Source: Sulfurimonas sp. HSL1-2 (lineage in GTDB: Bacteria; Campylobacterota; Campylobacteria; Campylobacterales; Sulfurimonadaceae). Taken from it: a stretch of DNA of 64,000 nt. A program made the position numbers and the translations under genes. Under the pieces are notes generated by a model. The model ran no database searches, was not told where the DNA came from, and saw nothing but the letters and a program-made list of their open reading frames with translations. Positions 60,644-64,000 of the stretch are shown here, piece by piece (position 1 is the stretch's first letter; every line of letters starts with the position of its first letter). The stretch lies in the NCBI RefSeq assembly GCF_039645565.1, contig NZ_CP147914.1, positions 1,299,573 through 1,363,572 of the forward strand, given 5' to 3'.

Positions 60644-60750
60644 AGCGCTATTTTAGCGTAAAGCCGCCCCGGTGGGCGCTGCCGCCTGAAAGATTTTTCA
60701 GCAATTTCGCCGGGAACGGCGATGATAGAAAACCTTTACCTGTTCCGGCC

Positions 60751-60756
60751 TAGAAT
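60751..60756 (+). promoter_or_regulatory. -10 box for the methyltransferase gene
   Basis: CCTAGAATAAGG (TAGAAT), 31 bases before the ATG at 60788, which has an AAAAGGAG ribosome-binding site. Confidence 0.35.
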
Positions 60757-60787
60757 AAGGGATTGCAGTAGCAAAAGGAGTAGCGCG

Positions 60788-61459
60788 ATGGCAGAGTTTG
60801 ACCCCGAAGCTTACCGGCAGATGGTCCGTTCCTACCAGGAGCGCGACGACCCGCTGGGGTGGTTCGACAGCATCTACAGCAGCGCCGACGGCGACCACAC
60901 CGCCGTCTTCTGGGCCGACCTCGCCCCCAACCCCTACCTGACCGGCTGGCTCAAAGCGCACCCCCTCGCACCGGGGGAAAAGCAGCGGGCCATTGCCGTC
61001 GGCTGCGGGGTCGGTGACGACGCCGAAGAGCTCTCCGCCTACGGCTACGACGTCACCGCCTTCGACATCGCCCCCAGCGCCATCGCGCTCTGCAAAAACC
61101 GCTACCCCGACAGCAAAGTGGAGTACCTCATCGCCGACCTGTTCGACTACCCAGAAGCGTGGAGAGGAGCCTACGACGTCGTCTACGAATGCAACACCAT
61201 CCAGGTGCTGCCGGGCAAGTACCGCATCATGGCCCGCGACGCCATGGTCTCGCTCATGGCCCCCGGCGGCACCATCCTCGTCTCCTGCCGCAGCCGCCTG
61301 GCCGGGGAACAGGAAGAAGCAATCCCCCTCCCCCTCGACAAAGACGAGATAGGCGGCTTCGTCCGCGCAGGCCTGAACGAGGAGAGTTTCGTCGCCTACG
61401 ACGATGACCAGCCCCCGCCGGTGCCGCACTTCTTTGCTACCTACCGAAAACCGCTCTAG
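60788..61459 (+). CDS. SAM-dependent class I methyltransferase
   Basis: The 223-aa protein has the Rossmann motif I AIAVGCGVGDDAEEL, motif II TAFDIAPSAIALCKNRY, DLFDYPEAWRGAYDVVYE (motif IV area) and GGTILVSCRS. It is similar in outline to the thiopurine/tellurite-resistance-like methyltransferases; the substrate is unknown. ATG 60788 has a strong ribosome-binding site. It is the last GC-rich gene before the AT-rich cassette array. Confidence 0.88.
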   Translation: MAEFDPEAYRQMVRSYQERDDPLGWFDSIYSSADGDHTAVFWADLAPNPYLTGWLKAHPLAPGEKQRAIAVGCGVGDDAEELSAYGYDVTAFDIAPSAIALCKNRYPDSKVEYLIADLFDYPEAWRGAYDVVYECNTIQVLPGKYRIMARDAMVSLMAPGGTILVSCRSRLAGEQEEAIPLPLDKDEIGGFVRAGLNEESFVAYDDDQPPPVPHFFATYRKPL

Positions 61460-61474
61460 CCGAGCAACTCCGCA

Positions 61475-61491
61475 CCGAGTTCTCGGATTTT
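61475..61491 (+). terminator. Small hairpin after the methyltransferase gene
   Basis: CCGAG-TT-CTCGG followed by ATTTT, about 15 bases after the stop. It marks the end of the GC-rich region. Confidence 0.4.
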
Positions 61492-61637
61492 CCACTCTCC
61501 AATGTATGATTAACACCGAATTGTGCCAATAGACCTACATCTTGTTAATCTATCACCGGATATCGATAATAGTCATACATCCATTTTTGCATTACAGCAC
61601 ACCAAACAGTTTAATATATTGCATATTGTTATTCTTT

Positions 61638-61676
61638 TTGCAGGTTTTTCTAACCAAAAAAGTTCTATAGTACACT
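61638..61676 (+). promoter_or_regulatory. Possible promoter at the head of the cassette array
   Basis: An AT-rich segment with TATAGT (61666-61671) and TACACT (61671-61676), and a T-rich block upstream. It lies just before the first cassette junction, the place where integrons carry their cassette promoter. No clean -35 box is spaced correctly. Confidence 0.3.
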
Positions 61677-61689
61677 AAAATGTAAACTA

Positions 61690-61704
61690 ATTAATAGTTA
61701 TCGT
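61690..61704 (+). other. attI-like 5' junction of the cassette array
   Basis: AATAGTTATCG contains the core GTTATC at 61697, in the G-TTRRRY form used by integron integrases. The bases TTATC at the start of the first cassette match the inverted R'' box (AGATAAC) of that cassette's own attC, so the recombination point is between 61697 and 61698. No further attC lies upstream. It may be an attI site or the scar of a lost one. Confidence 0.55.
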
Positions 61705-61718
61705 GAAAGAGAAAAAGT

Positions 61719-61919
61719 ATGAAAATAGAATGTATTAATTGTTCATATGTTGAAATAACAGATGATGATGGCAGTAAGTATTGTTTGGCTAGTGATATAT
61801 TTTTAAATATTATTGAAGAACAAAAAAAGGATATTAAAAGTAACAGTCCTTACCCATATATCTATGGTACAGCAGCATTGCAAAGTTTTTATGACACATA
61901 CCCGGAATGTTGTATTTAA
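61719..61919 (+). CDS. Cassette 1: hypothetical Cys-rich small protein
   Basis: I do not recognise this 66-aa protein. It has Cys5, Cys8 (CINC), Cys22 and a terminal CC pair, so a small metal site is possible. It is AT-rich and lies 21 bases inside the first cassette, with a GAAAGAGAAAA ribosome-binding site. The stop is just before the cassette's attC, which is the normal arrangement. Confidence 0.6.
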   Translation: MKIECINCSYVEITDDDGSKYCLASDIFLNIIEEQKKDIKSNSPYPYIYGTAALQSFYDTYPECCI

Positions 61920-61924
61920 ATGCG

Positions 61925-61996
61925 AGATAACAAATCAAAGGAGACCAATCAAAAACCCGCGGGCGGCTTTTTGATTGCTCATTTTAAACGTTATCT
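61925..61996 (+). repeat. attC site 1
   Basis: R'' AGATAAC (61925-61931) pairs exactly with R' GTTATCT (61990-61996). Between them lies an inner stem CAATCAAAAA/TTTTTGATTG around a GC-rich loop (CCCGCGGGCGG). GAC and CTC extend the stem with one mismatch. The crossover is between 61990 and 61991. The GC core followed by T5 could also act as a terminator. Confidence 0.82.
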
Positions 61997-62011
61997 TAAA
62001 AAGGAGTATAG

Positions 62012-62371
62012 ATGCTTGCATGGGGAATAGGTATTGTGGTTGTACTGACTGCACTTTATTTTTTGGCCAAAAAATTCGAAAGCCTGAAAAATGTGCCAAC
62101 AGAAAAATTGTATGAAACACTGGAAGATGAGAATCAATACAGGTTTTGGTTCAAATCAATCGAGGAACTTGTGCGCAGAGGTGAAGATATGACATATCTG
62201 AAAAACAAGCTCCTGGATGGTTTGGAATCTACCATTCTTAGAGATAGAGTTTTTGCTTCAGAGTCCTACAAAGCAATTTTTCCAAATGTATTACAGTCTA
62301 TTGGATATAAACCGAACAAAGAGCCGGATGAAGATATGCGTGTCAAACTTGCAGCCCTAAGAACGAAATAG
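62012..62371 (+). CDS. Cassette 2, gene 1: single-TM hypothetical protein
   Basis: The 119-aa protein has one N-terminal TM helix (residues 2-20, WGIGIVVVLTALYFLAKK) and a cytoplasmic helical domain (EKLYETLEDENQYRFWFKSI). It is not recognised. The start has a strong AAAAAGGAG ribosome-binding site within the cassette. It is followed after 11 bases by a second gene in the same cassette. Confidence 0.65.
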   Translation: MLAWGIGIVVVLTALYFLAKKFESLKNVPTEKLYETLEDENQYRFWFKSIEELVRRGEDMTYLKNKLLDGLESTILRDRVFASESYKAIFPNVLQSIGYKPNKEPDEDMRVKLAALRTK

Positions 62372-62382
62372 GAAATCGAATT

Positions 62383-62919
62383 ATGAAATATGTCGGAATT
62401 ATTTTATTAGTCCTGGTTGGATACTTTATTTGGCACTTCGTCATTCAAAACAAGCCCATTGTCATAGCAACATCAAATTCAGGCAAAAAGGTTTCCGGAA
62501 CTCTAAAGTTACCAATACAAGCCAATCAATTGACTATTCAAATTCAAAACAATGAACATAACACTGTTATTACAGGCATCAAAGTATCCAGAGATGTGCA
62601 TGACAGTTTGGGATTATCTGCTCCTAATGGCTTTCATCAAGAAGCAATGGCATTTGAAGATAGCGATGACACTGAAACAAAAGAATACGTAAAAAAATTC
62701 AATGCAGAGACTGTTCGGTATGATGGCAACTATAAAATCGGACCAAACCAAAAGGCAGAGCTGATCTTCCCAATAACCAATCTGGATGATTTACACGGGG
62801 AAATAGACTTTACATATGAACATAAACTTGGGTTTGGCGGTTCGATTTCCTTCTTTTCTGTACAGCTAAATCCTGAAAGAAAATCATCTGATGAAGACAA
62901 TCTCACAAGTAATGGATAA
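62383..62919 (+). CDS. Cassette 2, gene 2: membrane-anchored beta-rich protein
   Basis: The 178-aa protein has one N-terminal TM helix (residues 3-20, YVGIILLVLVGYFIWHFV) and a beta-rich domain probably outside the membrane (GKKVSGTLKLPIQANQLTIQ, IDFTYEHKLGFGGSISFF). It is not recognised. With the first gene it forms a two-gene cassette, suggesting that the two membrane proteins act together. Confidence 0.65.
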   Translation: MKYVGIILLVLVGYFIWHFVIQNKPIVIATSNSGKKVSGTLKLPIQANQLTIQIQNNEHNTVITGIKVSRDVHDSLGLSAPNGFHQEAMAFEDSDDTETKEYVKKFNAETVRYDGNYKIGPNQKAELIFPITNLDDLHGEIDFTYEHKLGFGGSISFFSVQLNPERKSSDEDNLTSNG

Positions 62920-62927
62920 TCGTCATA

Positions 62928-62999
62928 AGATAACAAATCACAGGAGACCAATCAAAAACCCGCGGGCGGCTTTTTGATTGCTCATTTTAAACGTTATAC
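62928..62999 (+). repeat. attC site 2
   Basis: R'' AGATAAC (62928-62934) is the exact reverse complement of GTTATCT, the start of its own cassette at 61990. R' here is GTTATAC (62993-62999), whose last six bases belong to cassette 3. The central region is the same as attC 1 except for one base in the spacer. Confidence 0.85.
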
Positions 63000-63013
63000 A
63001 GAAGGACACTTGA

Positions 63014-63439
63014 ATGATTCTTGAAAGTCTCGGACTGACATCATATGACATCGCTCTTCTTGTCGGTTGCCCAATCGGCGCTGTTATTGGTAGCCTGGCA
63101 CAGGCTATAGTTAAGAGTATTGATCTTGAGGGACCGCCTACAAACGAAGATGACATGAAGATAGCATCCAAGGAGCTTCAAGAATTACGTGGTACGTGGC
63201 TATATCTTAGGATGGTTCTAGGTGGCATCCTTGGCATTGTTTTAGGGTTGTACTTTATTGGCTCCATCCAACCTTCCGCTGCAACTGTCGCGAAGATCAT
63301 TGCTTTGTCAATAATTGCAGGATATGCGGCACCTAAAGTTTGGGAAGCGCAGGAACGCATCGTCGAAGCAAAGTTGAAGAAGATAGCCGACAGAGAAGAA
63401 GCTAATGACTCGGCTGCTGAGCGTGAAAATTCCATATAA
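63014..63439 (+). CDS. Cassette 3: three-TM hypothetical membrane protein
   Basis: The 141-aa protein has three predicted TM helices (about 12-33, 63-85, 89-108) and a charged helical C-terminus (EAQERIVEAKLKKIADREE). It is not recognised. The start has an AGAAGGACAC ribosome-binding site 14 bases into the cassette, and its TAA lies inside the R'' box of attC 3, a compact arrangement often seen in integron cassettes. Confidence 0.68.
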   Translation: MILESLGLTSYDIALLVGCPIGAVIGSLAQAIVKSIDLEGPPTNEDDMKIASKELQELRGTWLYLRMVLGGILGIVLGLYFIGSIQPSAATVAKIIALSIIAGYAAPKVWEAQERIVEAKLKKIADREEANDSAAERENSI

Positions 63440-63505
63440 CAAATCAGAGGAGACTAATCAAACACCCGCGGGCGGCTTTTTGATTGCTCATTTTAAACGT
63501 TAGGC
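63434..63505 (+). repeat. attC site 3
   Basis: R'' ATATAAC (63434-63440) against the cassette start GTTATAC gives one mismatch; R' is GTTAGGC (63499-63505), a consensus GTTRRRY. The centre carries a few changes from attC 1, but the GC core CCCGCGGGCGG and T5 remain. Confidence 0.82.
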
Positions 63506-63510
63506 TAAGA

Positions 63511-63939
63511 ATGAAAAAGTATCTTCTTTATCTACTTCTATTGCTTACTGGACTTTTGAATAGCTTTGCGGTCATTGCTTTGGCAGGTATTTTCTATCCC
63601 TTAGATGTAATAACATGGACAGTCAAAATGCTAAAAGAGCTTGAGCTCATTTACCTTGGATCATTTGCTGTGTACTTTATAGCTCAGTCGACTTTAGCAT
63701 TAATCAGTCTTCCATTTTTTCTATTATCAGCATACATGTTCACTCGCTATACCAGAATGAGTACTAACACAATAAGTACACTAAGTTCAACCGGAGTAGC
63801 ATTATTCGTAGCTATAGCAGGATACGTTGACGATCCAGGACCACTAATCTATCTACTTGACTTACTCATCCTTGTCATAATGAACGCAACTAGTATTTAT
63901 GCAATGGAGAAGCATTTAAAGGCACGTGAATATGCATAA
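63511..63939 (+). CDS. Cassette 4: four-TM hypothetical membrane protein
   Basis: The 142-aa protein is very hydrophobic with about four TM helices and short loops, starting MKKYLLYLLLLLTGLLNS. It is not recognised. ATG 63511 is 12 bases into the cassette with a weak ribosome-binding site (AGGCTAAG) partly formed by the R' box; an in-frame ATG at 63484 would lie in the previous attC. The TAA is inside the R'' box of attC 4. Confidence 0.65.
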   Translation: MKKYLLYLLLLLTGLLNSFAVIALAGIFYPLDVITWTVKMLKELELIYLGSFAVYFIAQSTLALISLPFFLLSAYMFTRYTRMSTNTISTLSSTGVALFVAIAGYVDDPGPLIYLLDLLILVIMNATSIYAMEKHLKAREYA

Positions 63940-64000
63940 CAAATCAGTGGAGACCAATCAAAAACCCGCAGGCGGCTTTTTGATTGGTCATTTTAAACGT
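63934..64000 (+). repeat. attC site 4, cut by the window end
   Basis: R'' GCATAAC (63934-63940) pairs with the cassette start GTTAGGC except for one base. The inner stem is longer here, because GACC/GGTC pairs fully. The window ends at the GT of R' (63999-64000), so at least one more cassette or flank follows. Confidence 0.8.

Follow-up and report, generated by a model that had tools for sequence, protein, structure and literature searches.

How does a genome in which no integron integrase can be found come to carry an array of gene cassettes joined by attC sites? The question is raised by a locus in Sulfurimonas sp. HSL1-2, whose genome consists of a single contig of 2,521,190 bases. We analysed a stretch of 64,000 nt from this contig, which we refer to as the window and in whose numbering positions in the array are given; the array itself is the 1361-kb locus of the genome. 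Knowledge of integrons comes mostly from the Gamma- and Betaproteobacteria. A first-pass annotation, made from the letters of the window, had proposed an integron-type array here, and this proposal stood in part: cassettes with attC sites are present, but a complete integron is not, as there is no intI gene anywhere in the genome.

Cassettes and attC sites of the array

The array spans positions 61698-63999, with each of its four cassettes closed by a 72-bp attC site and all cassette ORFs lying on the + strand (Table 1). Over the array and a 240-bp head, GC content is 0.33-0.46, compared with about 0.63 before them and about 0.6 after them. At the right end, the R' box of the fourth attC site overlaps the stop codon of the neighbouring chromosomal gene.

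Table 1. The array, its head and its chromosomal neighbours (window numbering, except where a locus handle precedes the position).
Feature	Position	Strand	Description
Conserved chromosomal gene left of array	60722-61459	+	methyltransferase-like, judged by sequence look
Array head ("leader"), type B	61490-61697	+	AT-rich, about 200 bp; candidate Pc and attI-like site
Cassette 1	61698-61990	+	293 bp; ORF 61719-61919 (66 aa), no family
attC site 1	61925-61996	-	R'' 61925-61931, R' 61990-61996; bottom strand would be the active strand
Cassette 2	61991-62993	+	1003 bp; ORFs 62012-62371 (119 aa) and 62383-62919 (178 aa), no family
attC site 2	62928-62999	-	covariance model and folding
Cassette 3	62994-63499	+	506 bp; ORF 63014-63439 (141 aa); stop codon within R''
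attC site 3	63434-63505	-	weakest folder of the four
Cassette 4	63500-63999	+	500 bp; ORF 63511-63939 (142 aa from ATG), no family; stop within R''
attC site 4	63934-64005	-	last 5 bases (end of R' box) beyond the window end at 64000
Chromosomal gene beyond attC site 4	L013:4573-5553	-	326-aa methyltransferase-like protein

Four nearly identical sites of about 72 bp had been claimed for the array, and this description was borne out: from R'' to R' all four measure 72 bp, and they are 94-100% alike over 65 bp. Two covariance models of attC were built. The first came from an alignment of 30 bottom strands taken from HSL1-2, its sister genomes and other genera; the second, drawn from 16 attC sites, held no sequence from HSL1-2, so that circularity would be avoided. 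Checked against this model from other genomes, as the first-pass annotation had recommended for an attC model, all four sites matched on the bottom strand at 80-99 bits (99.1, 97.3, 81.8 and 80.4 bits for sites 1-4; E 1e-21 to 1e-16), with the uncut copy of site 4 in L013 reaching 87.4 bits and top-strand scores staying below 38 bits. Single-strand folding likewise gives the bottom strand an advantage of 3 to 5 kcal/mol across the sites, with bottom-strand folds of -18.3, -15.4, -8.8 and -19.6 kcal/mol for sites 1-4 and top-strand folds of -14.6, -10.3, -5.7 and -14.3 kcal/mol. Compared with shuffled sequences, three of the four folds lie far outside the range and that of site 3 does not (z -1.6). 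attC sites are built on a common plan of an R box (TAAC/GTTA), an unpaired spacer, an L box, bases left unpaired on one side and a terminal stem, and the window sites conform to it. In the attC alignment 92% of cells pair, against 32-50% when it is slid, and shuffles barely differ; the sites are so alike that covariation is small, and it is the fit to the attC plan that supports the structure. An Rfam search matched no family. The four sites are genuine attC sites.

The boxes at the two ends of a cassette, R' at the start and R'' at the end, share one site of origin and are therefore mirror images. We compared them over 16 cassettes of HSL1-2 and G036, a complete genome of the same genus, a set in which window cassette 2 counts twice because a copy is present in G036 too. 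The reading that each R'' mirrors the first bases of its own unit held up well, with own-end boxes agreeing at 56 of 64 variable positions; 33.5 agreements would be expected for re-paired ends, and 56 was reached in none of 20,000 shuffles (P<5e-5). Boxes adjacent within one attC site agree at only 37 of 80 positions. Within the window the mirror is exact for cassette 2 and has one mismatch in each of cassettes 1, 3 and 4, just as had been described, and the two genes said to end inside R'' do so (ORF 63014-63439 and the ORF ending at 63939). The units are integron cassettes, each with complementary R' and R'' boxes of its own.

What these cassettes encode is mostly without a family name. The five cassette ORFs gave no Pfam family above cut-off and no PADLOC match, and a PHROG search of them returned one match, which assigns the ORF of cassette 3 to phrog_15254 (E 6e-40), a phage family whose function is unknown. 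The protein of cassette 3 also has a weak holin match, and its gene is common to phages and integron cassettes. In the plasmids and viral contigs searched, we found no relatives of the 178-aa protein of cassette 2, and the viral contigs searched yielded no attC core.

Integrase remnants and array heads

The whole genome contains no integron integrase, the best match to TIGR02249 being a Xer-like gene at 58.8 bits against a cut-off of 265. Its four tyrosine recombinases appear to comprise two Xer-like proteins and two other integrases, and the G036 IntI, used as a query against the genome, recovered only genes already matched by TIGR02249 and one fragment at 816,804-816,884. By the IntegronFinder definition, a CALIN has two or more attC sites, with cassettes, and lacks an intI close by. 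Since the genome holds no integron integrase, the array in the window is a CALIN, not a complete integron.

Traces of a lost integrase are found at another locus. At the head of the 816-kb array stand the final 27 codons of intI (78% amino acid identity), and an attI site adjoining this remnant is 88% identical to the G036 attI over 146 bp. The attI candidates were scored, alongside 507 control sites, with a position matrix built on 13 integrons belonging to other genera; the 816-kb attI reaches 13.3 bits, a score like that of the attI sites of intact integrons and one that none of the 507 controls equals. In the sister genome G010, the first 16 or so and the last 31 or so codons of intI are fused at the same locus (L086:13414-13540), the junction falling in a short stretch that the two ends have in common, and attI is intact alongside. 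This arrangement looks like an earlier step of integrase loss at the 816-kb locus, and shorter 3' remnants of intI occupy the same place in G027 and G036. Given the remnants and the G010 fusion, integrase loss by deletion is seen, not assumed, at 816 kb. No integrase remnant was found at the 1361-kb locus. At the 937-kb head (L014:15640-15690), the opposite strand reads MGKKLLDKVRDQISIRLEC with a ribosome-site-like stretch, and MGKKLLDKVRDQISIRLEC bears a weak resemblance to an integrase N-terminus (nhmmer E 0.014); this head may possibly hold a 5' remnant of intI.

The window array begins with a head that recurs elsewhere. A copy of this type B head lies at 937442-937637 on the minus strand of the same genome and is 91% identical to that of the window, and G027 and G036 each have type B heads at two loci, 79-85% identical. 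The copies diverge from the first cassette base, which is the cassette boundary. The head contains a conserved TTCTATAGTACACT that resembles a promoter -10 and ends in ACTAATTAATAG followed by TTA. TTCTATAGTACACT is its most conserved part, surviving even at heads that have otherwise diverged, and is a likely candidate for a promoter -10 region; scanning for a promoter consensus gave no decisive match. Most of the integrons examined are preceded by a family attI core, TGAATAAATA followed by GTTA, to which the end of the window head bears a weak resemblance. The attI matrix likewise matches the window head weakly, 7 of the 507 control sites scoring as high, and we therefore call the head attI-like. 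No type B head stands beside an intact integrase in the 200 family genomes. We infer that the type B head may be another kind of head combining promoter and attI, one that has persisted after its integrase was lost, and that the leader would have served the window array as both promoter and insertion point.

Turnover of cassettes at fixed loci

The covariance model finds 17 attC sites at seven loci of the genome: one each at 507 and 1184 kb, two each at 815-816, 1440 and 1686 kb, four at 1361-1363 kb and five at 933-937 kb. Half-sites occur at 695 and 936 kb, and apart from these two the attC sites flank genes and are not scattered alone, as bare repeats would be. At 1440 kb (L018:10851-10926), a clearly different type of attC (TAACAAATCGTTGCACACC...GAACTCAAACGTTA) adjoins a standard one. 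The flanks of the attC loci align with sister genomes, in three of them for the 1361-, 1184-, 816-, 937- and 1440-kb loci, in two for those at 1686 and 695 kb and in one for that at 507 kb. The contents between the flanks largely differ, the exceptions being sharing with G010 at 1184 kb and, partly, at 816 kb.

The locus in the window illustrates this turnover. Its left neighbour gene is the same in G010, G027 and G036, and all four complete genomes of the genus hold different genes between the same two neighbours. G036 has two attC sites and a TIR-like gene (CAP12-PCTIR_TIR, below cut-off), G027 has a caspase-like gene (also below cut-off) and a decayed attC, and no attC was found at the locus in G010. 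The defence-like genes of the sisters, TIR-like in G036 and caspase-like in G027, lie at L072:4541-5725 and L074:4620-5342. Four different contents between the same neighbours mean that contents turn over at a fixed place. Each compared genome represents one species, so the turnover is between species; the strain-variable cassettes that had been predicted are thus seen as contents that differ at this locus among the genomes of four species. We found no empty version of the locus; every one of the genus's four complete genomes has an occupied copy.

One of these genomes retains a complete integron. In G036 (L079:9046-14331), an intI gene is transcribed away from an attI site and an array of five cassettes, all between the same flanking genes as the 933-937-kb array of HSL1-2. 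Its IntI has 324 aa and scores 421 bits, with Vibrio IntI4 (2a3v) as the best PDB match. Judged by eye, one cassette of this integron appears to carry a gene pair (L079:9124-9704) for a PemK/MazF-like protein and an antitoxin of the AbrB/MazE-like kind. Over 938 bp, the second cassette of the G036 integron and cassette 2 of the window share 99.3% identity; the orthologous flanks of the 1361-kb locus are 88-93% identical between the two genomes. The G036 copy lies about 420 kb from the G036 place orthologous to the 1361-kb locus, and the two copies have different neighbours, to which they are joined exactly at the recombination points. From these alignments, cassette 2 is evidently a case of single-cassette transfer between genomes or loci.

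Of 200 genomes of the family, 67 have an integron integrase; in a phylum sample of 397 genomes the count is 39, from 18 of 68 genera and from six families that all belong to one order. The same attC core is found in genomes titled Arcobacter, Sulfurimonas, Sulfurovum, Sulfuricurvum, Sulfurospirillaceae and Acidithiobacillus marinus. In the last of these, which has a 37-nt core in common with the others, NZ_MXAV01000001.1 carries an attC of the Campylobacterota type (L040:517-597; 89 bits with the model), which suggests cassette exchange across phyla. The impression that integrons are seldom reported in this phylum has to be given up: they are not rare in its environmental members, the phylum is already listed among integron carriers (PMC8618304), and CALINs in Sulfurovum sp. 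NBC37-1 and an In0 plus a CALIN in Sulfurimonas autotrophica are on record (PMC10295459).

Origin of the array and comparison with known systems

We consider it highly probable that this CALIN stems from an integron, its cassettes having been inserted by IntI and the integrase later lost by deletion, with the promoter and an attI-like site both located in its head. IntI would have inserted the cassettes one by one via folded bottom-strand attC hairpins, behind this head and at one of several chromosomal places that are fixed in the genus. The integrase would then have been deleted from the HSL1-2 lineage, and the array would now be able to persist, with transcription from the head, while homologous recombination could remove or exchange it. 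With the integrase lost, the cell itself could do no reshuffling unless an IntI arrived in trans. We also infer that the IntI that built the array belonged to this lineage and was later lost, and did not come in on a passing plasmid.

Among the accepted origins of CALINs are the decay of a former integron and off-target insertion (PMC8618304). In the latter case, an IntI encoded elsewhere would have inserted the cassettes at an intergenic attG site where no platform ever existed, and the result would still be a CALIN. Single attC sites at 507 and 1184 kb, the lack of an intI remnant at 1361 kb and the weak attI likeness of the leader would all fit such a history, and we give secondary-site insertion some weight because the head is never beside an intact integrase in the family genomes and its attI match is no more than suggestive. 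It nevertheless seems unlikely, if still worth serious consideration, since the head of about 200 bp is shared with other array heads, two of them directly after an integrase 3' remnant, and since the locus is filled in each of the four complete genomes, a degree of site specificity that goes beyond scattered attG use (contrast, PMC12444791). Block exchange between loci or strains, with homologous recombination between heads or attC repeats and not an integrase having brought the present contents, might explain why the heads at 1361 and 937 kb are closer to each other than to sister-genome heads, and cassette 2 in G036 does sit between attC sites of nearly the same sequence. However, what is shared with G036 is a single cassette, bounded exactly at the recombination points and with both neighbours different, and we regard such an exchange as quite improbable.

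It is scarcely credible that the sites are a non-integron repeat, such as a bidirectional terminator or a MITE or REP-like hairpin, that separates genes by chance. The strong core hairpin with its AT-rich stem and the half-sites at 695 and 936 kb could be read in that way, but the bottom-strand bias, the cassette-specific end boxes, the same sites beside intact IntI and attI in G036 and the lack of an Rfam match all speak against it. A broader and rather doubtful idea is that the integron of the genus is a split system, in which several fixed heads, each with a promoter and a genus-specific attI-like site, would be served in trans by one integrase; lineages would differ in whether that gene survives, and the loci, not the integrase, would be what is inherited.

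Read as the remains of an integron that lost its integrase, the HSL1-2 array illustrates well how an integron decays in nature within the Campylobacterota. Four complete genomes can be compared at the same array loci: an intact integrase is kept in one, an internal deletion is visible in another and the losses are larger elsewhere, and their cassettes still differ. They are therefore well suited, as a natural series, to the question of how long arrays remain useful once the integrase is gone. The array also adds a Campylobacterota attC type, and none of the 11 taxon-specific attC models (PMC8352920) is for this phylum.

The window array is real and belongs to an already known kind of element, here in decay. 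It has the same plan as the CALIN class, with a cluster of attC sites, cassettes and no intI, and differs from it in nothing essential; here, sister genomes show the step of integrase loss, and several arrays share a head sequence. The elements of Sulfurovum sp. NBC37-1 and Sulfurimonas autotrophica are of the same kind and phylum and were found by IntegronFinder, their entries being a table listing without cassette, attI or loss analysis (PMC10295459). In Treponema phagedenis (PMC3607928), intI was likewise lost and attC left at a syntenic place, at one locus there compared with seven in HSL1-2. Xanthomonas (PMC12444791) offers a likeness in its ancestral integron at one locus, with intI truncated or lost in many strains and CALINs at other, conserved loci. 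The HSL1-2 case differs from it in belonging to another phylum, in the leader of about 200 bp that array heads share at several loci, and in having its intI remnants at a different locus from that of the intact intI of its sister.
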